64,000 nucleotides of DNA, taken from assembly GCA_947462255.1 (NCBI GenBank), contig CANHOA010000012.1:1-64000 (forward strand). Reading direction: 5' to 3'. The notes under the pieces are model-generated. The model was not told where the DNA came from and searched no databases. It saw nothing but the letters and a program-made list of their open reading frames with translations. The stretch's first letter is position 1. Each line of letters opens with the position of its first letter. This document shows, one piece after another, positions 50,669 through 64,000 of this stretch. The stretch comes from Flavobacteriales bacterium. Lineage in GTDB: Bacteria; Bacteroidota; Bacteroidia; Flavobacteriales_D; Crocinitomicaceae. The position numbers and the translations under genes are program-made.

Positions 50669-50750
50669 TATAAAGAACGGTCAATAAGTTTTTTTTCCAA
50701 AAAAAATACACTTATGTTTGCTTATTGTATTATTATTTTTAATTTTATGT

Positions 50751-50800: not shown

Positions 50801-51541
50801 ATGAAAAAAATCTTTACGCTAATTTCTGCTTGTTTAGTGGGTGCTGTGGCTATCGCTCAAGCAGACGTGACTTTTCAAGTAGATGTCACTAACTACGTTG
50901 CTGGAGGAGCAACAATCGACGGTACAGGTATTCGTGTTGCTGGTAATTTTTCTGGTAATGGTGCTAGTGCCAATGGAGGTCCTATGGCCGATTGGTCACC
51001 AACAAATGCTGGTTCTGCCATGACAGACATTGGAAACAATATTTGGGAAATTGTGGTTACATTCCCTGCTGCTGGTGGAAACCTAACGTACAAATTTGTA
51101 AATGGTAACTGGGGTATGAATGAAGGTACAGATCCAATGAGCACAATCGCTACTGGTGGTTGTGGTGTAGATGATGGCGCTGGAAACATTAACCGCACGA
51201 TGGTTATCCCAAGTGTTGGAACAACTGTACGTTACTGTTGGGACATGTGTTTGTACGCATGCAACGGAAGTGGAGCAAATGTTACAGAAGGCAGCATCTC
51301 TAATTTAGTGGTTTCTCCAAATCCTGCTACTGATGTAACTACTTTTGCATTTGAAACAAATGAAAACAATGCGACCGTTACTTTATTTGATCTTTCAGGT
51401 AAAACAGTAGCTGAGCAAACTGCCGTTACAGGTGCATCTAATCAAATTGAGGTGAATACCGCTAATTTAATGGCTGGTTATTATATCTATTCAGTGAAAG
51501 CTGGAGACGATGTTGTTACAGGTAAATTAATGAAGAAATAA
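50801..51541 (+). CDS. T9SS-exported starch-binding-like protein
   Basis: The 246-aa secreted protein (signal peptide to about 20) has one beta-sandwich module, VTFQVDVTNYVAGGATIDGTGIRVAGNFSG through WEIVVTFPAAGGNLTYKFVNGNW, of the kind seen in starch-binding (CBM20/48-like) units, and a T9SS type A domain from LVVSPNPATDVTTF to KLMKK. It has no enzyme motif. As first gene of the alpha-glucan locus, directly before a secreted amylase, it likely binds starch at the cell surface, a functional counterpart of SusE/SusF built on the T9SS. A terminator follows, so it should be made in excess over the genes behind it. Confidence 0.8.
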   Translation: MKKIFTLISACLVGAVAIAQADVTFQVDVTNYVAGGATIDGTGIRVAGNFSGNGASANGGPMADWSPTNAGSAMTDIGNNIWEIVVTFPAAGGNLTYKFVNGNWGMNEGTDPMSTIATGGCGVDDGAGNINRTMVIPSVGTTVRYCWDMCLYACNGSGANVTEGSISNLVVSPNPATDVTTFAFETNENNATVTLFDLSGKTVAEQTAVTGASNQIEVNTANLMAGYYIYSVKAGDDVVTGKLMKK

Positions 51542-51560
51542 TCTTTATTGTTCTTTTTTG

Positions 51561-51590
51561 AAAAGCCTATGTGAAAGCATAGGCTTTTTC
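51561..51590 (+). terminator. Terminator after the starch-binding-like gene
   Basis: A perfect 11-bp stem AAAAGCCTATG/CATAGGCTTTT with a 6-nt loop and a T-rich end. It stands 15 nt before the amylase gene, which has no visible promoter of its own, so part of the message must read through. Confidence 0.9.
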
Positions 51591-51604: not shown

Positions 51605-54373
51605 ATGAAAACGAGATTTAAATCACTTTTCTTTTTACTTGTTTTAACGTTTTCGTTAAATGGACAAATTTTAGAGCTTAGTCCCGCTTTTCCTACGGTA
51701 AATGATGTGGTTACTATCGTTTATGATGCGTCTCAAGGCAATGCTGCCCTGCTCGGTGTAAACCAAGTGTATTGTCATGCTGGATTGATTACTTCTACAA
51801 GTACCTCTCCAACCAATTGGCAGTATGTTCAAGGAAATTGGGGGCAAGCAGACCCACAGGTTCAAATGACCAACCTTGGCAATAATAAGCATTCAATAAC
51901 CATTAATATAGCTACTTTTTATGGTTTTCCAGTGAATACAAATGTCTTGAAATTGGCGTTTGTTTTCAGAAATCAAGCGGGAACAACAGTAGGTCGCGCT
52001 GCCGATGGCAGTGATATTTATTATGATATTTACCCCGTTAACGGTGGCCTTCAAGCGGCTATCTTCAATCCTATTCCGCCCTTACTGATAGATTTAAATC
52101 AAAGTTTCATCTTCAAAGGGCAATCCAATCAAATCGCAAGTCTAAGCCTTAAACAGGATGGATTGCTTATTCAAGCAGCTAATAATACAACTGTTTTGAA
52201 CTACAATATGACGGCAACTTCTGCGGGAACGCATACCTTATTATTTGAGGCAAACAATGGAACCACCATTCAAAAAGATAGCCTTGTTTATACTGTAAAT
52301 CCGTCGGTTTCTTATGTAAATCCGCCACTAGGCATTAAAAATGGAGCAAATCACATCAATGATTCGACCGTTATATTTCAACTTTATGCACCCGAAAAAA
52401 ACCATGTTTACCTGATCGGTGATTTCAATAATTGGACGGCTACTGCGCCTTATCACATGAACTGTTCAATCGACTCAAGCCGTTGGTGGTTGATGTTAGA
52501 TAACCTAAATCCAGGTCAGAAATATGCCTATCAATATTTAATTGTCGGTCAAGCAGCTTATGCTGATCCACTCAGCACCCTTATACTAGACCCCAGTAAC
52601 GACGGTTTTGTGGGTTCAATAACTTTTCCAAATATGCATCCTTACCCAACTGGTTTGACTACTGGGATGGTATCCGTTTATGAAACCACCCCCCAAGTGT
52701 ATAATTGGCAAAATTTATTCATTCGCCCGGAGAAGAAAGATTTGGTGATCTACGAACTTCTTATCAGGGATTTTGTCACTGCCAGAAACTACCAAACCCT
52801 AATTGATACCATTGCTTATTTGGATCAATTGGGAATCAACGCCATTGAATTGATGCCTAATTTTGAATTTGAGGGCAATCAAAGTTGGGGCTATAACCCT
52901 TCTTTTCACCACGCTTTAGATAAATATTACGGTACCGCTCAGAAATTCAAGGAATTTGTAGATACGTGTCATGGAAGAGGAATTGCTGTTATTACGGACA
53001 TGGTTTTAAATCATGCTTTTGGACAAAATCCCATGGTTAACATGTATTGGGACGCTTTAAATAGCAGGCCCGCAGCAAATAACCCTTGGTTCAATGCGGT
53101 TTGTCCACATCCACCAAACTGCTGGGGATATGACTTCAATCACTCAAGCTCTGCGACCAAAGAATATGTTGATCAGGTCAATCGGTATTGGATTCAGGAG
53201 TACCATATCGACGGGATTCGTTTTGATTTCACCAAGGGTTTTGCTAATACCGCTGCAAGTTACAGTATCGAGCGCATCAATAATATCAAACGCATGTCTG
53301 ATAGCATTTGGTCCTTTGACCCTAGTCAGTATGTGATTCTTGAGCATTGGTGCGACAACAACGAAGAAGAACAATTGGCTGATTACGGTTGTATGCTGTG
53401 GGGGAATGTTACTTTTGGTTATCAAAATGCTGCCAAAGGGTTTATCGCTAATTCGAGTTTAATGAATGGTATCTATACCAGTAGAACATGGGCCCTGCCT
53501 CATCTTATTACCTATATGGAAAGTCACGATGAAGAAAGATTGATGTACGAAGCCATTACCTACGGTAACGCGACAAATCCTTTACACAATGCGAAGGATC
53601 CATATACGGCCTTGGGTAGAATGCAAGGATTAGCGGTGAGCTTCTTGACCCAACCCGGACCGAGAATGATTTGGCAATTTGGTGAAATCGGCTACGACAT
53701 TTCAATAGATTATCCTTGCCGAACGTGCAACAAACCCATTCTTTGGAGCTATTTACAACAAGGCCGACGCCAACAACTACTCGATGTTTATAAAGCTACT
53801 TTGGCTTTGCGCAACAATTACGAAACCTTTCGCTCCTTGAATTTTCAAGCCAGTTTAGGAGCAGGTATCAAACGCATGATTATGAATCATTCTAGCATGA
53901 ACGGAATTTCATTGGTGAATGTGGATGTAAACGTGGCTTCAGCTGTTCCAGCTTTTCAGCATACCGGTTGGTGGTATGAATATTTTTCAGGAGATAGCCT
54001 CAACGTTAGCAATGTGAATAGTGGAATCGTTTTACAAGCTGGCGAGTACCGCGTATACACCGATATCAAATTACCTAAACCATACATTACCTCCGTGGCG
54101 AGTTTAGAAGAATTGGAGACCGAAGCGTTTGAGTTTAAGGTTTATCCTGTTCCTTTTGATGAAAGCTTGAGCTTTTCCTTCGACGCAGATGGCTTTTTGC
54201 CCTACGAGATACAATGGTATACTTCTGAAGGACAACTAGTAGATTCCAAAAAAGGATTCTCTAATTATGGTCTAAATACCTTGGATTGGAAAAATATTCA
54301 AGTTCCTCCAGGAACGTATTTGATCGTGCTGCAACTAGGAAATCAATTCACTTCAAAAATTATAGTAAAATGA
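51605..54373 (+). CDS. T9SS-exported GH13 alpha-amylase family enzyme
   Basis: The 922-aa secreted enzyme has a signal peptide (to about 20), N-terminal beta domains, an E-set/CBM48-like module (about 255-330, HVYLIGDFNNWTA), the GH13 barrel (about 378-760) and a T9SS type A domain (FKVYPVPFDESLSF to TSKIIVK). Conserved regions: I ITDMVLNHAF, II GIRFDFTKG with nucleophile Asp541, III ILEHW with acid Glu580, IV MESHDEER with Asp642. It should cut starch or glycogen outside the cell. The stop overlaps the start of the CotH gene (ATGA), coupling the two. Confidence 0.92.
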   Translation: MKTRFKSLFFLLVLTFSLNGQILELSPAFPTVNDVVTIVYDASQGNAALLGVNQVYCHAGLITSTSTSPTNWQYVQGNWGQADPQVQMTNLGNNKHSITINIATFYGFPVNTNVLKLAFVFRNQAGTTVGRAADGSDIYYDIYPVNGGLQAAIFNPIPPLLIDLNQSFIFKGQSNQIASLSLKQDGLLIQAANNTTVLNYNMTATSAGTHTLLFEANNGTTIQKDSLVYTVNPSVSYVNPPLGIKNGANHINDSTVIFQLYAPEKNHVYLIGDFNNWTATAPYHMNCSIDSSRWWLMLDNLNPGQKYAYQYLIVGQAAYADPLSTLILDPSNDGFVGSITFPNMHPYPTGLTTGMVSVYETTPQVYNWQNLFIRPEKKDLVIYELLIRDFVTARNYQTLIDTIAYLDQLGINAIELMPNFEFEGNQSWGYNPSFHHALDKYYGTAQKFKEFVDTCHGRGIAVITDMVLNHAFGQNPMVNMYWDALNSRPAANNPWFNAVCPHPPNCWGYDFNHSSSATKEYVDQVNRYWIQEYHIDGIRFDFTKGFANTAASYSIERINNIKRMSDSIWSFDPSQYVILEHWCDNNEEEQLADYGCMLWGNVTFGYQNAAKGFIANSSLMNGIYTSRTWALPHLITYMESHDEERLMYEAITYGNATNPLHNAKDPYTALGRMQGLAVSFLTQPGPRMIWQFGEIGYDISIDYPCRTCNKPILWSYLQQGRRQQLLDVYKATLALRNNYETFRSLNFQASLGAGIKRMIMNHSSMNGISLVNVDVNVASAVPAFQHTGWWYEYFSGDSLNVSNVNSGIVLQAGEYRVYTDIKLPKPYITSVASLEELETEAFEFKVYPVPFDESLSFSFDADGFLPYEIQWYTSEGQLVDSKKGFSNYGLNTLDWKNIQVPPGTYLIVLQLGNQFTSKIIVK

Positions 54374-55794
54374 GGATTTTGTTCTCTGTTCTATTTATAG
54401 TTCTTGCATTCGGTTCTATTTCACAATTGGTGCATCCTGCCAATACGCCTGCCTTTAAACAAGATGAGGTGGCGAAAATTTACATCACGATGAACTCCCA
54501 AGATTTTAATACCATGGTTGGCGATAGTTTGGGTTCAACTTACGAATTCCCTGCATCGTTCATTTATATCAGTAGTACACTTACGGATACATTGTCCTCC
54601 ATAGGTATTCGGCTGCGCGGAAATACCTCCTTGCAATCTGCTAAAAAATCTTTTAAATTAGATTTCAATGCTTATGTTCCCGGTCAGAAGTGGGAAGATT
54701 TAAAATCTATGAATCTCAATGGAGAACACAACGACGTTTCCATTATGCGTGCTCGCACTTGTCATGAAATGCTCAGATGGGCAGGCTGCCCTGTTGCGCG
54801 AAGCTCTTATGTAGAATTGTATATAAACGGAACCTATAAAGGATTATACCTCAATGTTGAACACTTTGACGATCAGTTTTTAGAAGCCCGCTTCATTGGA
54901 AACGCTGGTGGGAATTTATACAAGGCCCACTATGGGGCTGATCTTACTAATTTGGGTAGTAACCCCAATGACTATGCCCCACTGTATGAACTTAAAACCA
55001 ACCAAGATACCAATGATTATTCAGGATTGATTCATTTTATAGAGGTTTTAAACAACACTTCTAATGCAGAATTTCCTTGCGCCATTCAAGAAGTATTGGA
55101 TGTGGACCTTTGTCTAAAAACCATGGCGCTGGAGGTATTGGCTGCCCATTGGGATGGTTATATTGTGAATAAAAACAATTACTATCTCTACCAAAGACCA
55201 TCAGATGGCAAGTTCGTTTACATAGAGTACGATGTGGATAATACATTCGGAGTTGATTGGTTCTCAATTGATTGGCAAACACGCAATATTTATTTATGGG
55301 CATTGCCAAATACCCAACGCCCTTTGTACTATCGTTTAATGCAAGTGCCTTATTTTAAAGATCGATTTTCCTATTATATAAATTTGCACTGTCAACAGTT
55401 TTTCAATCCTACTTTTTTACTTTCCGTATGGAACCAAACCCAAGCTGTTATCGCGCCATCTGCCCTTGCGGATACATATAAAGGATTAGATTATGGGTTT
55501 ACCAATGCTGATTTTATGTCTGCCATTTCTCAGAATTGGGGTAGTCACATTCCTGTTAGCCTAAATGAGCACGTTACTTTGCGACATTCATCGGCATTAA
55601 GTCAATCTTCTTACCTAGGCTTGGCGAATCCTTGCTCACTCAGTTTGACGGAATCCATTGATTTGAATGCCCCAATTCCAGTTTCATACTATGATGTACT
55701 TGGTCGTATTTTGTTAGCACCACCTGCAAATCAAGTTTATTTGGTGCGGTATATCGATGGTAGTATCCGACAATTCTATTCCGTAGCACCATGA
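54370..55794 (+). CDS. CotH-family secreted protein kinase
   Basis: From ATG 54370 (inside the stop of the amylase gene) the product is 474 aa with a signal peptide MRILFSVLFIVLAFGSISQ. CotH motifs: IRLRGNTSLQSAKKSFKLDF (glycine-rich loop and Lys, about 83), VELYINGTYKGLYLNVEHFDD (Glu), the catalytic-loop-like AAHWDGYIVNKNNYYLY (Asp and Asn) and the metal motif IEYDVDNTFGVDW. All residues expected for an active kinase are present. The C-terminus (SYYDVLGRILLAPP, VYLVRYIDGS) resembles a T9SS domain without its usual NPxxx start. It overlaps both flanking amylase genes by 4 nt; such a kinase in a starch locus is unusual. Confidence 0.88.
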   Translation: MRILFSVLFIVLAFGSISQLVHPANTPAFKQDEVAKIYITMNSQDFNTMVGDSLGSTYEFPASFIYISSTLTDTLSSIGIRLRGNTSLQSAKKSFKLDFNAYVPGQKWEDLKSMNLNGEHNDVSIMRARTCHEMLRWAGCPVARSSYVELYINGTYKGLYLNVEHFDDQFLEARFIGNAGGNLYKAHYGADLTNLGSNPNDYAPLYELKTNQDTNDYSGLIHFIEVLNNTSNAEFPCAIQEVLDVDLCLKTMALEVLAAHWDGYIVNKNNYYLYQRPSDGKFVYIEYDVDNTFGVDWFSIDWQTRNIYLWALPNTQRPLYYRLMQVPYFKDRFSYYINLHCQQFFNPTFLLSVWNQTQAVIAPSALADTYKGLDYGFTNADFMSAISQNWGSHIPVSLNEHVTLRHSSALSQSSYLGLANPCSLSLTESIDLNAPIPVSYYDVLGRILLAPPANQVYLVRYIDGSIRQFYSVAP

Positions 55795-57701
55795 TTCTTA
55801 GAATTTTCTTATTTTTTTCATTGGCTCTAGCATGGCAAGGGCACACTCAGAAAAATATCTTGAGCCATGTCGAGCCAGGTAATTGGTGGGTAGGAATGAA
55901 GCACCATCAAGTTCAAGTTTTATTGCATGGACCACAAATTGCAAATTATTCACCAAGCGTACAAGGATTGAATGTGCTTGGAATTATTAAAACTGAAAAT
56001 CCGAATTACCTTTTTATTACTGTTGAAACGCAAGATAAAAATGCAGGAACATATCCAATTATTTTGTCAGATAACAAGAAGAAGGAAGTAGCGCGTTTTG
56101 AATTTAAATTAGAAGAACGAATCTATCAATCAGCTAATCGAGAGGGATTTTCGTCTAAGGATGTGATTTACTTATTAATGCCTGACCGTTTTGCGAACTT
56201 GTATCCAGGCCAAGACACCTACGCGGGAATGACAGAACCAGGTAATCGCGATTTACCAGGCGGTCGCCATGGTGGAGATATTCAGGGAATAATAGAACAT
56301 TTAAGTTATATCAAGGAATTAGGTGCAACAACCATTTGGACGACCCCCTTGCTAGAGGATAATGAACCTACTTATTCCTATCATGGTTATGCGCAATCTG
56401 ATTTATATAAAGTAGATCCGCGCTATGGCTCGAACGATTGGTTTAAGGGAATGGTGCTAGAAGCGCACCGCCAAGGCTTAAAAGTAATCAAAGATGAGGT
56501 GCCCAATCATTGGTCCAGTAAGCATTGGATGATGAATGACTTGCCAACCAAAACATGGATTCATGAATTCCCTACTTTTACGCGCTCAAGTTACCGCACT
56601 AGCACACAAATGGATCCCTATGCGTCAGAAAGCGACGTTCGCGCATCCGAAGATGCTTGGTTCGATACTTCCATGCCCGACATGAATCAATCGAATCCTT
56701 TACTTTTGAATTACTTAATTCAAAATACGCTTTGGTGGATCGAGTTTGCCTGCCTTGATGGACTTCGGGTAGATACGTATTCGTACAATGATAAACAGGC
56801 CATTGCAAAATGGACTCAATCCATCATGGAGGAATACCCCAATCTAAATATTGTTGGAGAAATCTGGCTGCACAATCAAGCGCAAATTTCTTATTGGCAA
56901 AAAGACAGTCCCATTGGTGCTCTTGAATCATACAATAGTGGTTTGCCTTCGGTGATGGATTTTACCCTACATGATGCAATCACTCAAGCATTCAGTGAAA
57001 CAAAACAGGGTTGGGATCAAGGAATGGTGCGTATTTATGAGAATTTCGTAAATGATTTTCTCTATAAAAACCCTAACAACTTGCTCGTATTTATGGAAAA
57101 TCATGACATCAAAAGGTTTAATGAGATCTATCCAAATCTTGCAGATTATAAACTCGCCCTTACTTTACTATCAACAACGAGAGGAATACCACAGATTTAT
57201 TATGGTTCTGAAATCGGAATGAAAGGATCTAAGGAAGTGGGAGATGCAGATATCCGAAGGGATTTTCCAGGTGGATGGGGTACAGACAAACAAACAGCTT
57301 TTTATGCTAACGATGATAAACGAAGATATGGACTCGAGGGAAGAACTCCTGAACAAGAAGCCTACTTTCAGTTCACAAAAAAACTATTGAATTGGCGCAA
57401 AAATAAAGAAGTCATTCATGAAGGTAAATTGGTTCAGTATGTACCGGAAAACAATGTATATGTCTATTTCAGAATTCAAGAAAGTAAAAATGGCCTTCAA
57501 AGTACAAAACGTCTTATGGTAGTATTAAATAATTCATCGGATGAGCAAAAGATCAACTTAGATCGATTTGAGGAGTCATTCGATGTATCTCAACTCAAAA
57601 GCGTTCCAATTAGAAAAGAGATTTTAAGTGATTTACCTATAGATTTTTCGCAGAAAACATTAACTATTCCAGGAAAAACGGCATGGATAATCGAACTCTA
57701 A
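55791..57701 (+). CDS. SusA-like periplasmic GH13 (neopullulanase/cyclomaltodextrinase type)
   Basis: The 636-aa enzyme has a signal peptide (to about 20), an N-terminal cyclomaltodextrinase-type domain (VEPGNWWVGMKHHQVQVLLHG), then the GH13 barrel: DRFANLYPGQD, region I IKDEVPNHW, region II GLRVDTYSY with nucleophile Asp328, region III IVGEIWL with Glu357 and region IV MENHDIKRF with Asp439. There is no T9SS domain, so it stays periplasmic, where it would cut imported maltooligosaccharides as SusA does. Overlaps the CotH gene by 4 nt and the next gene by one base. Confidence 0.93.
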   Translation: MILRIFLFFSLALAWQGHTQKNILSHVEPGNWWVGMKHHQVQVLLHGPQIANYSPSVQGLNVLGIIKTENPNYLFITVETQDKNAGTYPIILSDNKKKEVARFEFKLEERIYQSANREGFSSKDVIYLLMPDRFANLYPGQDTYAGMTEPGNRDLPGGRHGGDIQGIIEHLSYIKELGATTIWTTPLLEDNEPTYSYHGYAQSDLYKVDPRYGSNDWFKGMVLEAHRQGLKVIKDEVPNHWSSKHWMMNDLPTKTWIHEFPTFTRSSYRTSTQMDPYASESDVRASEDAWFDTSMPDMNQSNPLLLNYLIQNTLWWIEFACLDGLRVDTYSYNDKQAIAKWTQSIMEEYPNLNIVGEIWLHNQAQISYWQKDSPIGALESYNSGLPSVMDFTLHDAITQAFSETKQGWDQGMVRIYENFVNDFLYKNPNNLLVFMENHDIKRFNEIYPNLADYKLALTLLSTTRGIPQIYYGSEIGMKGSKEVGDADIRRDFPGGWGTDKQTAFYANDDKRRYGLEGRTPEQEAYFQFTKKLLNWRKNKEVIHEGKLVQYVPENNVYVYFRIQESKNGLQSTKRLMVVLNNSSDEQKINLDRFEESFDVSQLKSVPIRKEILSDLPIDFSQKTLTIPGKTAWIIEL

Positions 57702-60154
57702 TGAAGTTAGTGCTTGTTTTTGTGGCCATGGTGTTTAACACTGTTGCCTTTGGTCAAAATCCAAACAGACAGTTTAAAAGTATTGAGTCAATAAATGCCG
57801 GTGTTCAGGTATCGGTGTCAGATGGAGTATATATCTTCAGAACCTATGGGCCTAATATCATTGAAACGACGTTTATTCCGAACGGACAAAAACACGAAGC
57901 GAATTCACATGCAGTGGTTACACAACCTGACAATAATCCATTCACTTGGTCGGCATCTTCAAACCAATTCATTCCCCCCCATATATTTATATATAGCAAA
58001 TCAGCGAAAAGCAAAGGAATAAATCCATCTATTATTGTACAAACCAATCCGTTTCAAATTTCATATTTCTATAAAGGAAAGTATCTACTATCAGAACGTT
58101 GGGGCTATGATGTGGATTCTACAATGGAAAAAATCCAGTTTAATTTAAGCGAAGGAGAAAAGTTGTTTGGAACAGGAAATCGGGTACTTGGTATGGATAG
58201 AAGAGGGTATAGGCTAGCCTTGTACAATAGGGCGCACTATGGTTATGAAACCCATTCGGAACAAATGAATTTCTCTATGCCGTTGGTAATTTCTGATCGG
58301 CTGTATGCCCTTCATTTTGATAATTCGTACACTGGCTTTTTGGATTTAGATTCAAAAAAAGACAGCAGTCTGACCTATGAAATGACTGGGGGAAGAAAAA
58401 CCTATCAGGTGATTGCAGCAAGTGATTATAAAGAGTTGGTTTCAGCTTACACTAGCCTTACGGGGCGCCAACCCATGCCCCCGAGATGGGCCTTTGGTAA
58501 TTTTGCGAGCCGTTTCGGTTACCATTCGGAACAAGAAGCGCGTGCGGTGGTTTCTAAATTTAGAGCGGATAGCATTCCCTTAGATGCGATTGTTTTTGAT
58601 TTGTATTGGTTCGGGAAAGATATTCAAGGAACATTGGGCAACTTTGCCTTTTATACAGATTCCTTTCCTACTCCGCAAAAAATGATTAATGATTTTTCAA
58701 ATCAGAATGTCAATACTGTATTGATTACAGAACCATTTATTCTTACCACATCCAATCGTTGGCAGGAGGCGAAAGATAAAAAATTACTGGCTGTTGATAG
58801 TTTGGATAACCCTTTCACCTATGATTTTTATTTCGGAAATACTGGCCTAATTGATATCTATGCTCCCCATGCGAAAAAGTGGTTTTGGGATATCTATACT
58901 GAGTTAGCAAATATGGGGGTGAAGGGCTTTTGGGGAGATCTTGGTGAACCAGAGGTTCATCCTAGTAAATTACTGCATGCCAATGGCGTATCAGCGGATC
59001 AAGTACATAATATTTATGGGCACGATTGGGCACGATTAATTTATGAAGGATACAAAAGTACTTTTCCACTCGAACGGCCATTTATTTTAATGCGGGCTGG
59101 TTATTCAGGTTCTCAGCGTTTTGGAATGATCCCATGGACAGGTGATGTTAATCGCTCATGGGGAGGATTGAAACCTCAGATGGAACTTACCATGCAGATG
59201 GGCATGCAAGGAATTGCTTATATGCATTCAGATTTAGGAGGATTTGCTGGAGCAAACGATGATCCTGAATTGTATGTTCGCTGGCTTCAATATGGCGTGT
59301 TTCAACCTATTTTCCGACCGCATGCGCAGCAGGAAGTGGCTAGTGAAGCCATTTTTAAAGATGAAAAAACAAAACAACTTGCCAAAGAAGCCATCGAATT
59401 ACGCTATCAATTGCTTCCTTATAATTATACCTTGGCTTTTGAAAATCATCTCAATGGCACGCCACTTATGCGCCCTATTTTTATGGAAAATACTCAGGCA
59501 TCGTGGGCGGATACGATCACAAACGAATTCATGTGGGGACCGAGTTTGTTGGTGAAGCCAATCACAAATCCAATCCTAAAAAATACGCTGCCTCTTCAGG
59601 ATGTAAGAGCGCCAAACGGAACATGGTATGATCTGCGAAGTGGAAAACAACGCATTGAAAACTATCAGCCAAATCAAAATAATCAAAAAGCGTATTACCT
59701 CATACCAGGCGATTTATCTGGTATTCCTGTTTTGGTAAAAGGCGGGGCGTTTATCCCAATGTCACCTACGATTCAATCAACTAAAGAGTATGCTGATTCA
59801 TCGGTAACGATTCATTACTATGATGACAAGGATATTAAGACAAGCCAAGCACAATGGTATGAAGACGATGGTTTGACCAATGAGGCTTACGAGAAGGGCT
59901 TATATAAACTTCTTCGCATGACCATGAAACAATCGAATCGACAATCAACTTTGCTTTTTATTCCCGAATATGGAAAAAGTTGCTCGCAAATGTCTTTTTC
60001 ATTTGAAGTATGTATCCATTCTAAACGAATACCCAAAAAACTCATTTTAAATGGAAAGAAAAATGTACCGTTCGTGGTGGATCAAAAAACCCAAACCATT
60101 CGTTTAACAACGCATTTGAGCGAAAAACAATCGCGTTTAAAAATTAAATGGTAA
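57701..60154 (+). CDS. Periplasmic GH31 alpha-glucosidase
   Basis: From ATG 57701 (sharing its A with the preceding stop) the protein is 817 aa with signal peptide MKLVLVFVAMVFNTVAFGQ. GH31 features: N-terminal beta-sandwich, GTGNRVLGMDRRGYRLALYN, barrel start MPPRWAFGNFASRFGYHS, nucleophile Asp413 in KGFWGDLGEPEVHP and acid/base Asp482 in WTGDVNRSWGG, then the C-terminal beta domains. It would release glucose from maltooligosaccharides, the job that SusB (GH97) does in Bacteroides. No T9SS domain is present. Confidence 0.92.
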   Translation: MKLVLVFVAMVFNTVAFGQNPNRQFKSIESINAGVQVSVSDGVYIFRTYGPNIIETTFIPNGQKHEANSHAVVTQPDNNPFTWSASSNQFIPPHIFIYSKSAKSKGINPSIIVQTNPFQISYFYKGKYLLSERWGYDVDSTMEKIQFNLSEGEKLFGTGNRVLGMDRRGYRLALYNRAHYGYETHSEQMNFSMPLVISDRLYALHFDNSYTGFLDLDSKKDSSLTYEMTGGRKTYQVIAASDYKELVSAYTSLTGRQPMPPRWAFGNFASRFGYHSEQEARAVVSKFRADSIPLDAIVFDLYWFGKDIQGTLGNFAFYTDSFPTPQKMINDFSNQNVNTVLITEPFILTTSNRWQEAKDKKLLAVDSLDNPFTYDFYFGNTGLIDIYAPHAKKWFWDIYTELANMGVKGFWGDLGEPEVHPSKLLHANGVSADQVHNIYGHDWARLIYEGYKSTFPLERPFILMRAGYSGSQRFGMIPWTGDVNRSWGGLKPQMELTMQMGMQGIAYMHSDLGGFAGANDDPELYVRWLQYGVFQPIFRPHAQQEVASEAIFKDEKTKQLAKEAIELRYQLLPYNYTLAFENHLNGTPLMRPIFMENTQASWADTITNEFMWGPSLLVKPITNPILKNTLPLQDVRAPNGTWYDLRSGKQRIENYQPNQNNQKAYYLIPGDLSGIPVLVKGGAFIPMSPTIQSTKEYADSSVTIHYYDDKDIKTSQAQWYEDDGLTNEAYEKGLYKLLRMTMKQSNRQSTLLFIPEYGKSCSQMSFSFEVCIHSKRIPKKLILNGKKNVPFVVDQKTQTIRLTTHLSEKQSRLKIKW

Positions 60155-60169
60155 TATTTTTTTTCTTTG

Positions 60170-60203
60170 TGTCAAATTGACATTAAGAAATATTTTATAT
60201 TTG
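60170..60203 (+). promoter_or_regulatory. Promoter/operator of susCD, site 2
   Basis: Palindrome TGTCAAATTGACA (60170-60182) followed by TTAAG and, 13 nt after the palindrome, the -7 box TATATTTG (60196-60203). The TTG inside the palindrome could be the -33 element (16-nt spacer). The ATG of susC is 32 nt further. Confidence 0.6.
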
Positions 60204-60235: not shown

Positions 60236-63200
60236 ATGATAAGAAAACTACTTTTTACACTACTTTCATTATTATTTGTTTCCCTAGCTGCACATGGGCA
60301 AACAGCTAGTATTATTGGGAAAATAACTGATGTTGAGGGACTTCCAGTTTATCCAGCAACCCTTGTATTAGAGGGAAAAGGCATGGGTGCACAAACCAAT
60401 GAGAATGGTGAATTTGAAATTAAATTTGTTCCTATAGGAACTGTTGTTCTAATCGTTCGTTCCACAGGTTTTGTTACTTATAATCAAGAAATTATTGTTT
60501 CTTCGGGTACTGTTCTTAATCAAAATATCACTTTATCAAAAGAAGCGAAAGAGTATGATGAGGTTGTTGTGATCGGTTACGGAACAACAAGGACCAAAGA
60601 TTTGACAGGAGCGGCTACCGTTATTACAGAAAAAAACTTTCTTCAGGGCTCGTTAGCGACACCAGAACAGTTGATTATGGGAAAAGTGGCCGGATTGAAA
60701 GTTACTTCAAATGACGGAGCTCCAGGTTCTGGAAGTACTTTGCGTCTCAGAGGAGGAACCTCAATCAATGCCAGTAATGATCCCTTGATTGTTATCGATG
60801 GTGTTCCAATTGATAATGGTGGAATTGCTGGTGCCGCCAATCCTTTGTCATTGGTTAACCCTAACGATATTTCCTCTTTTGTTATTTTGAAAGACGCTTC
60901 TGCCACTGCTATCTATGGTGCACGTGCGGCCAATGGTGTTATTCTCATTACCACCAAAAAAGGTAGCGCAAGTCAAAAAGAGGTTCATGTAACCTTAAAT
61001 TCCAAGATTTCCATTTCCACCATTTCAAAATATGCTGAGGTATTATCTGGCGACTCGCTTCGAAAACTTATAAATAGACAAGGAAGCCAGCAACAAATAG
61101 ATCTTTTAGGCGCTGCGAGTACAGATTGGCAGAAAGAGGTGTTTAGAACGGCTATTACCACAGATAATAACGTATCCATTACAGGTGGTATTATCGGATT
61201 GCCGTACCGTTTATCAGTAGCGAATCGATTTGAAAATGGTTTGCTTAAGCGCGATAACATGAACAGAACATCATTGGGGCTTAACCTAAATCCAACGTTT
61301 CTCGATGGAAATTTACAATTGGAAGTTAATCAGAAAATGGTTCAATCACGTGCCTTTTTTGCCAACAGAGGCGCTTTAGGTGCTGCTTTCTTCGATCCAA
61401 CTCAAGCGGTGCAATCAGGAAATAACAATCTCTTTGGCGGCTATTTTGAATGGATAGATAATGGCAAGCCCAACGTTTTATCCGCTCGTAATCCTCTGGG
61501 TTTAATTATGCAGTCTGAAGATAGAAGTGTGGTCAACCGCTACATTGGAAATGCTAAAGTAAGCTACAAAATGCCTTTTCTTCCAATGCTAAAGGCGACA
61601 GTCAATTTAGGAACAGATCAATCAGAAGGAACGGGCTATACCATCACCGATTCCTTATCTGCTGCGGGTTATTTTACTCAAGGAAGCTACAGTCCTTATC
61701 GCCAGACCAAAGGAAATAAATTAATTGAGGCGTATGCTAATTTTAATACGGGTGAAAAATACAAAGATCATCTCTTAGATTTAACTGCTGGGTATTCCTA
61801 CCAAGATTGGTATACCTCAAGTCCTAATTACGCAGGCTATAACCAAGCTAAAACCGATACTATTGTTCTGCCGGCAGCTAATCCTTTTTATACCAAAAAT
61901 GCCTTGCTTTCTTTCTATGCGAGGGGGATTTATACGTTTAAAAATCAATTTGTTGTGAATTTGTCGATGAGAAGAGACGGATCCTCCCGATTCAGTTCAG
62001 AGCAGAGATGGGGCTGGTTTCCTGCCGCTTCTGCTGCTTGGTTGCTCAGCGAGGGTTTCTTGAACGACGTTAAAGAAATCAGTATGCTAAAAATCAGGGT
62101 AGGTTATGGAGTTACAGGGCAACAAGATGGAATTGGAGACTATGCCTATATTGGAAATTATTTTGAGGGGGCGGCTAATGCCCAATACGCCTTTGGTGGA
62201 CAATACTATACGGTTTTTCGTCCTGCAGGATACGATGCCAATTTGAAATGGGAAACTACCAGTAGTATCAATATCGGATTAGATTTCGGATTATATAAAG
62301 ATCGCTTCTCAGGGTCAATTGATGTGTATAGAAAATCAACATCCGATTTGTTGGCGACAGTAGCGGTGCCAGCAGGAACCAACTTTACAAATCAAATTTT
62401 AACGAATGTAGGTGGCATGCAAAACCAAGGAATTGAGGTGAGCCTAAACACGGGTTTGATCGCAAAAAAGAATATGCGCTTAGATTGGATGGTCAACTTT
62501 ACCAGAAATTTTAATGAAGTGACCAAGTTGTCGCAAATCGAAGACCCTAATTCACCGGGAATTTTAGTCGGAGGCATCGCAGGAGGAATTGGAAATCAAG
62601 TACTGATTCACCAAGTGGGACAACCTACTTTTACCTATTTTGTGTATGAACAGCAATACGAGCAAGATGGATCACTCATTGAAGTAGGTCAACAAGCTTC
62701 TATTGATATGAATGGAGATGGTACGATTAATACATCAGACAAATGGAAGGATACAAACGCATTTGTTGATCGAAATAACGATGGCATCATTAATGTCAAA
62801 GACCGCTACTATGCTGGCCAAGTGGCACCGAAGTTTTTTATGGGAACCGCGCTTAATTTTCAATGCGGGAAATGGAATGCGGGTGTGTCTATGAGAAGCG
62901 AGATAGGCGGAACCATCTATAATAATATCCACTCGAATTCGGCCACATTCAGTGCCATTGATGGCACCAAAAAGTATTTAAGCAACATCAGTTCCTTGTT
63001 TTATGAGGACGAAGTGCAAAAAACAACAACCAATCAACTTTTATCAGATCATTATCTCGAACGGGCAGATTTCCTGCGAATTGATAATATCAGTGTAGGG
63101 TATAATTTTGGTAAATTAGGATTCACCAAGGATAAAGTTGGGGTAAATGTTGGTTTTTCCGTTCAAAATGTTTTCGTGTTCACCAAGTACTCTGGACAGG

Positions 63201-63283
63201 ACCCTGAGGTTGGCGGTGGTGTTGACAATAATTTTTATCCAAGACCAAGGGTGTATACCTTGAATCTAAACTTTGATTTTTAA
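60236..63283 (+). CDS. susC: SusC/RagA-family TonB-dependent outer-membrane transporter
   Basis: 1015 aa. Signal peptide MIRKLLFTLLSLLFVSLAAHGQ, a carboxypeptidase-regulatory-like domain (about 25-105, IIGKITDVEGLPVYPATLVLEG), the TonB-box/plug region (EVVVIGYGTTRTKDLTGA, then LIVIDGVPIDNGG, ASATAIYGARAANGVILITTKKG) and a 22-strand-type barrel ending TLNLNFDF. An extracellular loop near residues 822-860 has two Ca-binding-like DxNxDG motifs, common in SusC. In this setting the ligand is probably maltooligosaccharide; it works with the SusD encoded next. Confidence 0.94.
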   Translation: MIRKLLFTLLSLLFVSLAAHGQTASIIGKITDVEGLPVYPATLVLEGKGMGAQTNENGEFEIKFVPIGTVVLIVRSTGFVTYNQEIIVSSGTVLNQNITLSKEAKEYDEVVVIGYGTTRTKDLTGAATVITEKNFLQGSLATPEQLIMGKVAGLKVTSNDGAPGSGSTLRLRGGTSINASNDPLIVIDGVPIDNGGIAGAANPLSLVNPNDISSFVILKDASATAIYGARAANGVILITTKKGSASQKEVHVTLNSKISISTISKYAEVLSGDSLRKLINRQGSQQQIDLLGAASTDWQKEVFRTAITTDNNVSITGGIIGLPYRLSVANRFENGLLKRDNMNRTSLGLNLNPTFLDGNLQLEVNQKMVQSRAFFANRGALGAAFFDPTQAVQSGNNNLFGGYFEWIDNGKPNVLSARNPLGLIMQSEDRSVVNRYIGNAKVSYKMPFLPMLKATVNLGTDQSEGTGYTITDSLSAAGYFTQGSYSPYRQTKGNKLIEAYANFNTGEKYKDHLLDLTAGYSYQDWYTSSPNYAGYNQAKTDTIVLPAANPFYTKNALLSFYARGIYTFKNQFVVNLSMRRDGSSRFSSEQRWGWFPAASAAWLLSEGFLNDVKEISMLKIRVGYGVTGQQDGIGDYAYIGNYFEGAANAQYAFGGQYYTVFRPAGYDANLKWETTSSINIGLDFGLYKDRFSGSIDVYRKSTSDLLATVAVPAGTNFTNQILTNVGGMQNQGIEVSLNTGLIAKKNMRLDWMVNFTRNFNEVTKLSQIEDPNSPGILVGGIAGGIGNQVLIHQVGQPTFTYFVYEQQYEQDGSLIEVGQQASIDMNGDGTINTSDKWKDTNAFVDRNNDGIINVKDRYYAGQVAPKFFMGTALNFQCGKWNAGVSMRSEIGGTIYNNIHSNSATFSAIDGTKKYLSNISSLFYEDEVQKTTTNQLLSDHYLERADFLRIDNISVGYNFGKLGFTKDKVGVNVGFSVQNVFVFTKYSGQDPEVGGGVDNNFYPRPRVYTLNLNFDF

Positions 63284-63293
63284 CTAATTAGCT

Positions 63294-64000
63294 ATGAAAA
63301 AAATAATCATTTTCTCTCTGTTACTTACCGGCATCTCTGTTTCATCGTGTAAGAAACAATTAAACCAAGCGCCAAAATACGGATTAAATGCTGAGGTAGT
63401 GTATAGCGATCCCGCTAACTATATCAAGGTATTGGCAAAACTGTATGCTGGGCTTTCTATGACAGGAAATCAAGGTCCTGCGGGTCAGGCGGACATTGCG
63501 GGCATTGATGAAGGATTTTCCGCCTATGTTCGCGTTTTGTGGAACTTGCAGGAACTACCTACCGACGAAGCCATTTGTGGTTGGAATGATCCAGGTATTC
63601 CAGAATTAAATAAATCTCAATGGAATGCTGAAAATGTTTGGGTTAAGGGAATGTACTACCGGATTTATTATCAAATCACACTTTGTAATGAATTCATTTG
63701 GCAAGCAAGAGATGAGAAATTAGCGGAAAGAGGTTTTAGCACTACAGATGTTGAGATGATTCGTAAATTTAGAAATGAAGCTCGCTTTTTACGGGCCCTG
63801 AGTTATTACCATGCTTTAGATCTATTTGGTAATGTGCCTTTTGTAACCGAGTTGGATCAAGTAGGTGCTTTTCAACCGAAACGAATAGAGAGAGCGGCAT
63901 TATTTGAATATGTAGAGAATGAGTTACTTGCTATTGAAGACCAATTGTTACCTGCTTCTTCCGCACCTTATGGACGAGCATCTCAAGCTGCTGCACAGTC
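63294..64000 (+). CDS. susD: SusD/RagB-family starch-binding lipoprotein (3' end outside window)
   Basis: ATG 63294 opens a frame with no stop before the window ends (235 codons seen). Lipoprotein signal MKKIIIFSLLLTGISVSSCKK, then the SusD N-terminal part: LYAGLSMTGNQGP, MYYRIYYQITLCNEFI, FRNEARFLRALSYYHALDLFGNVPFV (the family's best-known helix motif). It caps the SusC barrel and binds the glycan. It lies 10 nt behind susC, clearly the same message. Confidence 0.94.
   Translation, partial: MKKIIIFSLLLTGISVSSCKKQLNQAPKYGLNAEVVYSDPANYIKVLAKLYAGLSMTGNQGPAGQADIAGIDEGFSAYVRVLWNLQELPTDEAICGWNDPGIPELNKSQWNAENVWVKGMYYRIYYQITLCNEFIWQARDEKLAERGFSTTDVEMIRKFRNEARFLRALSYYHALDLFGNVPFVTELDQVGAFQPKRIERAALFEYVENELLAIEDQLLPASSAPYGRASQAAAQ

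Follow-up and report, generated by a model that had tools for sequence, protein, structure and literature searches.

Gene content of the locus

The window (the whole stretch of DNA analysed, 64,000 nucleotides) ends in a block of genes on the forward strand in which a gene encoding a CotH-family kinase-fold protein lies between two GH13 glycoside hydrolase genes. The features of this block are as follows.

50801..51541, + strand: small X25/CBM-like protein (Pfam Por_Secre_tail 3.3e-12, X25_BaPul_like 3.4e-05)
51560..51589, + strand: strong 13-bp hairpin with a trailing T-run, in the interval from the X25 gene to the upstream GH13 gene
51605..54373, + strand: upstream GH13 (DUF4961, CBM48, alpha-amylase domain and T9SS type A C-terminal domain)
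54370..55794, + strand: CotH-family kinase-fold gene, 474 aa (PF08757, 7.6e-59)
55791..57701, + strand: downstream GH13 of the alpha-amylase family, cyclomaltodextrinase/neopullulanase type, SusA-like (Pfam)
57683..60154, + strand: GH31 alpha-glucosidase (Pfam), its start overlapping the downstream GH13 gene
60236..63283, + strand: SusC/RagA TonB-dependent receptor (TIGR04056, 7.7e-189)
63294..64000 in the window, continuing to contig position 64862, + strand: SusD lipoprotein (PF07980, 2.6e-31)

With a SusC/SusD pair, two GH13 enzymes and a GH31 enzyme the locus is Sus-like, and its content of GH13, GH31, CBM48 and X25 domains points to starch as the substrate. The SusC/SusD pair, the neopullulanase-type GH13 and the GH31, as well as a surface GH13 and a SusE/F-like binder, are shared with the Sus-like loci of Bacteroidota (SusA, SusB, SusC, SusD, SusG); unlike those loci, this one has a kinase-fold gene between its two GH13 genes, and its predicted surface amylase and binder bear T9SS tails. 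The upstream GH13 enzyme is probably surface-exposed or secreted, because it combines CBM48 with a T9SS tail; the downstream GH13 enzyme is probably periplasmic, because it has a signal peptide only and no T9SS tail. The X25 protein, which has a signal peptide and a T9SS type A tail and whose orthologue in a related locus (L061) matches SusF_SusE (2.8e-6), is a probable surface starch binder resembling SusE/F. Its gene is the upstream neighbour kept among relatives' loci, where orthologues of the upstream GH13 also occupy the same position.

The sequence-only reading had described ATGA overlaps on both sides of the CotH gene, and both are present, with the upstream GH13 gene at 54370-54373 and with the downstream GH13 gene at 55791-55794; they suggest that the three genes are translationally coupled. 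The block from the X25 gene to susD may nevertheless hold more than one transcript, because the hairpin at 51560-51589 interrupts it near its beginning and a Bacteroidota-type -7 box (TATATTTG) is found at 60196, ahead of the SusC gene. Another such box (TATGTTTG) lies at 50713, ahead of the X25 gene. The hairpin is likely a terminator or attenuator, and as such would allow the X25 protein to be made in excess.

Fold, active site and export of the CotH protein

The protein encoded between the two GH13 genes is a genuine CotH-family kinase-fold protein. It matches PF08757 with 200.3 bits (curated cut-off 23.8, E 7.6e-59) and none of the NCBIfam models, and its sole significant match in the PDB by phmmer is CotH of B. 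cereus (3.5e-16). An AlphaFold model built from 30 homologues has a mean pLDDT of 90.3, and among solved structures it most resembles 5jd9 and 5jda, of which 5jda (Z 41.2, rmsd 2.1 over 347 residues) is B. cereus CotH with Mg and AMP bound; the structure check that had been proposed for the kinase fold thus came out in its favour. Bacillus CotH (PF08757; 5jd9/5jda) has this fold (Z 41, 22-24% identity) and the catalytic Asp/Asn/Asp set in common with the window protein, in which the loop from catalytic Asp to Asn is 3 residues longer. The next structural matches are PI4K, HipA, CtkA and Fam20 kinases, with Z 10-13.

Fam20B and other secretory-pathway kinases phosphorylate sugars. The fold neighbours include sugar-bound Fam20 (5xoo, Z 10.5) and lipid kinases, and the cotH gene sits among glucan-processing enzymes, features that would suit a kinase acting on alpha-glucan, another envelope glycan or a lipid instead of a protein. 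This seems very unlikely, however: the matches in question fall far short of the CotH match (Z 41) and do not exceed those to Fam20C-type protein kinases (Z 10-11), and a phosphorylated glucan would be expected to hamper cleavage by GH13 and uptake by SusC. The Golgi Fam20 kinases, which have a kinase-like fold in the secretory route, are distant relatives only (Z 10-11 to the CotH model); the Golgi has ATP, whereas none is known to be available in the Gram-negative envelope, in the periplasm or at the surface.

Three active-site motifs had been cited in the sequence-only reading as kept, and all were located:

54610..54630, + strand: RLRGNTS, glycine-rich loop, residues 81-87 (G84, N85 and S87 invariant in 30 orthologues)
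55147..55179, + strand: HWDGYIVNKNN, catalytic loop, residues 260-270 (D262 and N270 equivalent to D166 and N171 of PKA)
55231..55242, + strand: DVDN, residues 288-291 (D288 equivalent to metal-binding D184 of PKA)

Equivalences were taken from an alignment to 5jd9, and the roles in CotH of the residues equivalent to D166, N171 and D184 of PKA have been reviewed (PMC12189002). D262, N270 and D288, together with K185 and E164, are invariant in the set labelled A1 and in 30 orthologues, and in a broader alignment D262 and D288 are identical in 93 of 93 homologues and N270 in 99%. All 13 active-site positions examined are invariant in the 30 genus and family orthologues, in which 25% of kinase-domain positions overall are invariant. 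Because the active site is so strictly conserved, catalysis by CotH is favoured. Counting against an active kinase, Tyr142, which stacks on adenine in B. cereus CotH, aligns with Lys185 (invariant in A1). The second stacking residue of B. cereus CotH, Trp245, has an aromatic counterpart here, Tyr287.

The CotH start was placed at ATG 54370, which gives a Sec signal peptide (MRILFSVLFIVLAFGSISQ) without a lipobox, and the protein, earlier described as secreted, is accordingly predicted to be exported. A TTG start at 54286 (502 aa) in the mechanical list of open reading frames was rejected, as the signal peptide and the starts of orthologues point to ATG 54370. At E<=1 the window protein matches neither of the C-terminal domain models TIGR04183 and PF18962, but hhalign relates its C-terminus to the T9SS tails that homologues carry (E 3e-5, probability 73%). 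The same models do match CotH homologues about 740 aa long, and those in families f4 and f9 consist of CotH, a lamin-tail domain (LTD) and a T9SS tail (codes such as g1, f1, f4, f9 and f62 are the tool's group labels, not taxon names). The short tail of the window protein appears to be derived from a T9SS domain, with uncertain function.

These surface-type architectures bear on the main rival of a kinase role, that CotH is a non-enzymatic structural or binding module that anchors or scaffolds amylases at the surface. LTD and T9SS domains, borne by homologues outside the genus, are typical of surface proteins, and cellulosomal CotH has been discussed as a structural component or plant-wall binder (PMC12484212, PMC8665504). 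Nor does the locus offer an obvious substrate: no 40-residue stretch of its seven proteins exceeds 0.375 S+K+R, and unlike the Bacillus module it lacks a CotB/CotG-like substrate with Ser/Lys/Arg repeats, a criterion that belongs to the Bacillus module and not to the CotH family. A purely structural domain would, however, be expected to lose some active-site residues, and here 13 such positions have stayed invariant in 30 orthologues while about 75% of kinase-domain positions vary, which makes a scaffold alone unlikely.

Conservation of gene order and co-occurrence with GH13

Of 36 relatives in the genus, 24 carry a CotH orthologue (49-72% identity). Orthologues (59-99% identity) also occur in 12 named metagenome-assembled genomes of Flavobacteriales and Crocinitomicaceae, the isolate names of which suggest mostly lakes, reservoirs and ponds. 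A survey of genomes had been proposed for recurrence of CotH near GH13 and SusC, and recurrence was found: each of the 30 loci of the genus that are readable on either side of CotH has the order GH13-CotH-GH13, which persists across about 50% protein divergence. The overlaps between CotH and GH13 genes are not due to chance, since junctions in these 30 loci range from -14 to +13 bp; a chance neighbourhood of the two genes is ruled out by the order kept in 30 of 30. Beyond the genus, CotH directly adjoins the same GH13, SusC and SusD in families f4 and f9, and lies near them in family f62, which is outside the order. Of the 36 relatives in the genus, 24 have both CotH and the upstream GH13 (counting G001, in which the upstream GH13 is a contig-end fragment only) and 12 have neither, a pattern that would also be expected from loss of the operon, which removes both genes.

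Additional genes were noted at some of these loci. In family f4, CotH occurs with an X25/CBM starch-binding T9SS protein (L082 8480-13824, L083 8526-12484), and in L082 it is also directly associated with a T9SS esterase (PF00756), which L084 retains along with CotH but without GH13. In family f9, the gene directly upstream of CotH-GH13-SusCD (L080 9093-9815, L081 9084-9815) encodes a NUDIX-HTH regulator of the NrtR type (Pfam match in L080), a candidate for sugar responsiveness.

The co-occurrence of CotH with the upstream type of GH13 was examined across 396 genomes of the class, with genes within about 8 kb regarded as linked; one computation took 397 genomes, which altered nothing of note. 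Upstream-type GH13 is encoded by 36 of 40 genomes with group A CotH, compared with 104 of 356 without it. Counted by genus, the figures are 20/20 and 62/178 (Fisher 5e-9, p-values being guides only because genomes of the same genus are phylogenetically non-independent), and counted by family, 13/13 and about 18/63. The two genes are unlinked in 15 of the 20 genera that have both. Genomes with only group B CotH, which serve as an internal control, carry upstream-type GH13 in 3 of 32 cases, a count that includes G334, whose match may be group A.

The type IX secretion system was rejected as a common cause of this association, its sortase being nearly universal (368 of 396 genomes). A polysaccharide-degrading life style does account for part of the link, since GH16, a polysaccharidase of another kind, is enriched in the same genomes (33/40 with group A CotH, 181/356 others), but as the whole explanation it fails, for the link to GH13 survives stratification, both among GH16-positive genomes (30/33 versus 88/181) and among GH16-negative genomes (6/7 versus 16/175). 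Group A CotH is an accessory of the amylase rather than a requirement, because 104 of the 140 genomes with upstream-type GH13 carry no group A CotH.

The window's genome carries 8 CotH genes, six of which have no GH13 match nearby in the stretches read, while a seventh lies beyond SusD on the opposite strand. This abundance, and the occurrence of the same CotH subfamily unlinked to GH13 in many families, are points in favour of a passenger, a general T9SS or envelope CotH caught in the operon by chance and with no role in starch use. Such an origin is quite improbable in view of the gene order kept across about 50% protein divergence and of the co-occurrence with GH13 in genera that have the two genes apart. 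It is also at odds with a tree of 87 CotH proteins, in which GH13 linkage occurs in three separate branches; as a label it needs 4 changes and is confined to group A, with no group B locus in the tree carrying it.

The CotH gene beyond SusD (66322-68499 on contig C12, minus strand) is just past the end of the window, and its product has a T9SS tail. It is preceded by genes for a 252-aa prealbumin-like/Cna-B-like protein and a DUF2490 protein, the set being convergent with SusD (contig C12 64870-68499, L009), and contig C16 (L013) holds a comparable set of CotH, lipoprotein and DUF2490 genes.

Possible role in a starch utilisation system

The reading preferred here, to which we give about an even chance, is that the exported CotH kinase serves a Sus-like system for starch or alpha-glucan as a dedicated accessory, active on a partner in the envelope. 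CotH would be co-produced with both GH13 enzymes, the surface amylase and the periplasmic one, and, being catalytically active, would transfer phosphate to Ser/Thr of the partner during export. The partner would most likely be the T9SS-secreted GH13, the X25/SusE-like binding protein or CotH itself, and phosphorylation would stabilise or organise the complex of surface amylases, the part that CotH plays for the proteins of the spore coat. More tentatively, as a possibility somewhat short of even, phosphorylation of the surface amylase or binder by the exported kinase may control or assemble the Sus-type starch machine, the CotH branch being specific to the lineage and having co-evolved with the amylase across Bacteroidia. 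The analysis suggests, then, that phosphorylation outside the cytoplasm may help to build or tune the starch machinery. This hypothesis, like the proposal of the sequence-only reading that an amylase, the starch-binding protein or SusCD is phosphorylated, is weakened by the lack of an SKR-repeat substrate, by the problem of extracytoplasmic ATP and by the genomes that have this GH13 but no group A CotH.

The coat proteins that CotH phosphorylates in Bacillus are CotB and CotG, and coat structure is disturbed when CotH is in its inactive D228Q form (PMC7821199). Together with the missing SKR-repeat protein and the ATP problem, the shortened, T9SS-derived tail argues that the window system does not simply copy this one. 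The Bacillus cotB-cotG-cotH module and the window locus are alike in that the kinase gene clusters with partner genes in the context of a surface structure (PMC7821199); unlike Bacillus CotH, the window protein has a signal peptide for export and is encoded beside amylases and SusCD. If this CotH is active, a nutrient-uptake system of Gram-negative bacteria would be subject to Ser/Thr phosphorylation beyond the cytoplasm, which would raise the question of the source of ATP.

No report of CotH in a Sus locus was found in the open-licence papers searched, in agreement with the earlier statement that no described sus-like locus is known to include a kinase. The CotH family and this type of Sus locus are both known, and it is their fixed combination, with a CotH branch that tracks one type of amylase across Bacteroidia, that was found nowhere described in the open-licence literature. 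Secreted CotH-like kinases occur in many polysaccharide degraders, cellulosomes included. The window locus is a case that is both compact and conserved, and candidate partners are encoded right beside its CotH gene.

CotH proteins are common in cellulosomes, where a structural or a regulatory role has been discussed for them (PMC12484212, PMC6083626, PMC8665504). The clostridial and fungal examples (CseP/Cthe_0044; Cthe_0239, with LTD-LTD-Fn3-CotH; dockerin-CotH proteins of anaerobic fungi) resemble the window protein in being exported and tied to a multi-enzyme apparatus for polysaccharide degradation, and the combination of LTD with CotH occurs both in cellulosomal proteins and in homologues of the window protein. 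The cellulosome, however, is a dockerin-cohesin assembly on plant cell walls, whereas the window encodes a T9SS/SusCD starch system, and its CotH has no dockerin. In family f60, group A CotH proteins reach about 1150 aa (L114 245-3706, L113 2300-5722), and that of L114, with a dockerin type I match (6e-8) and a T9SS-like tail, recalls cellulosomal CotH.
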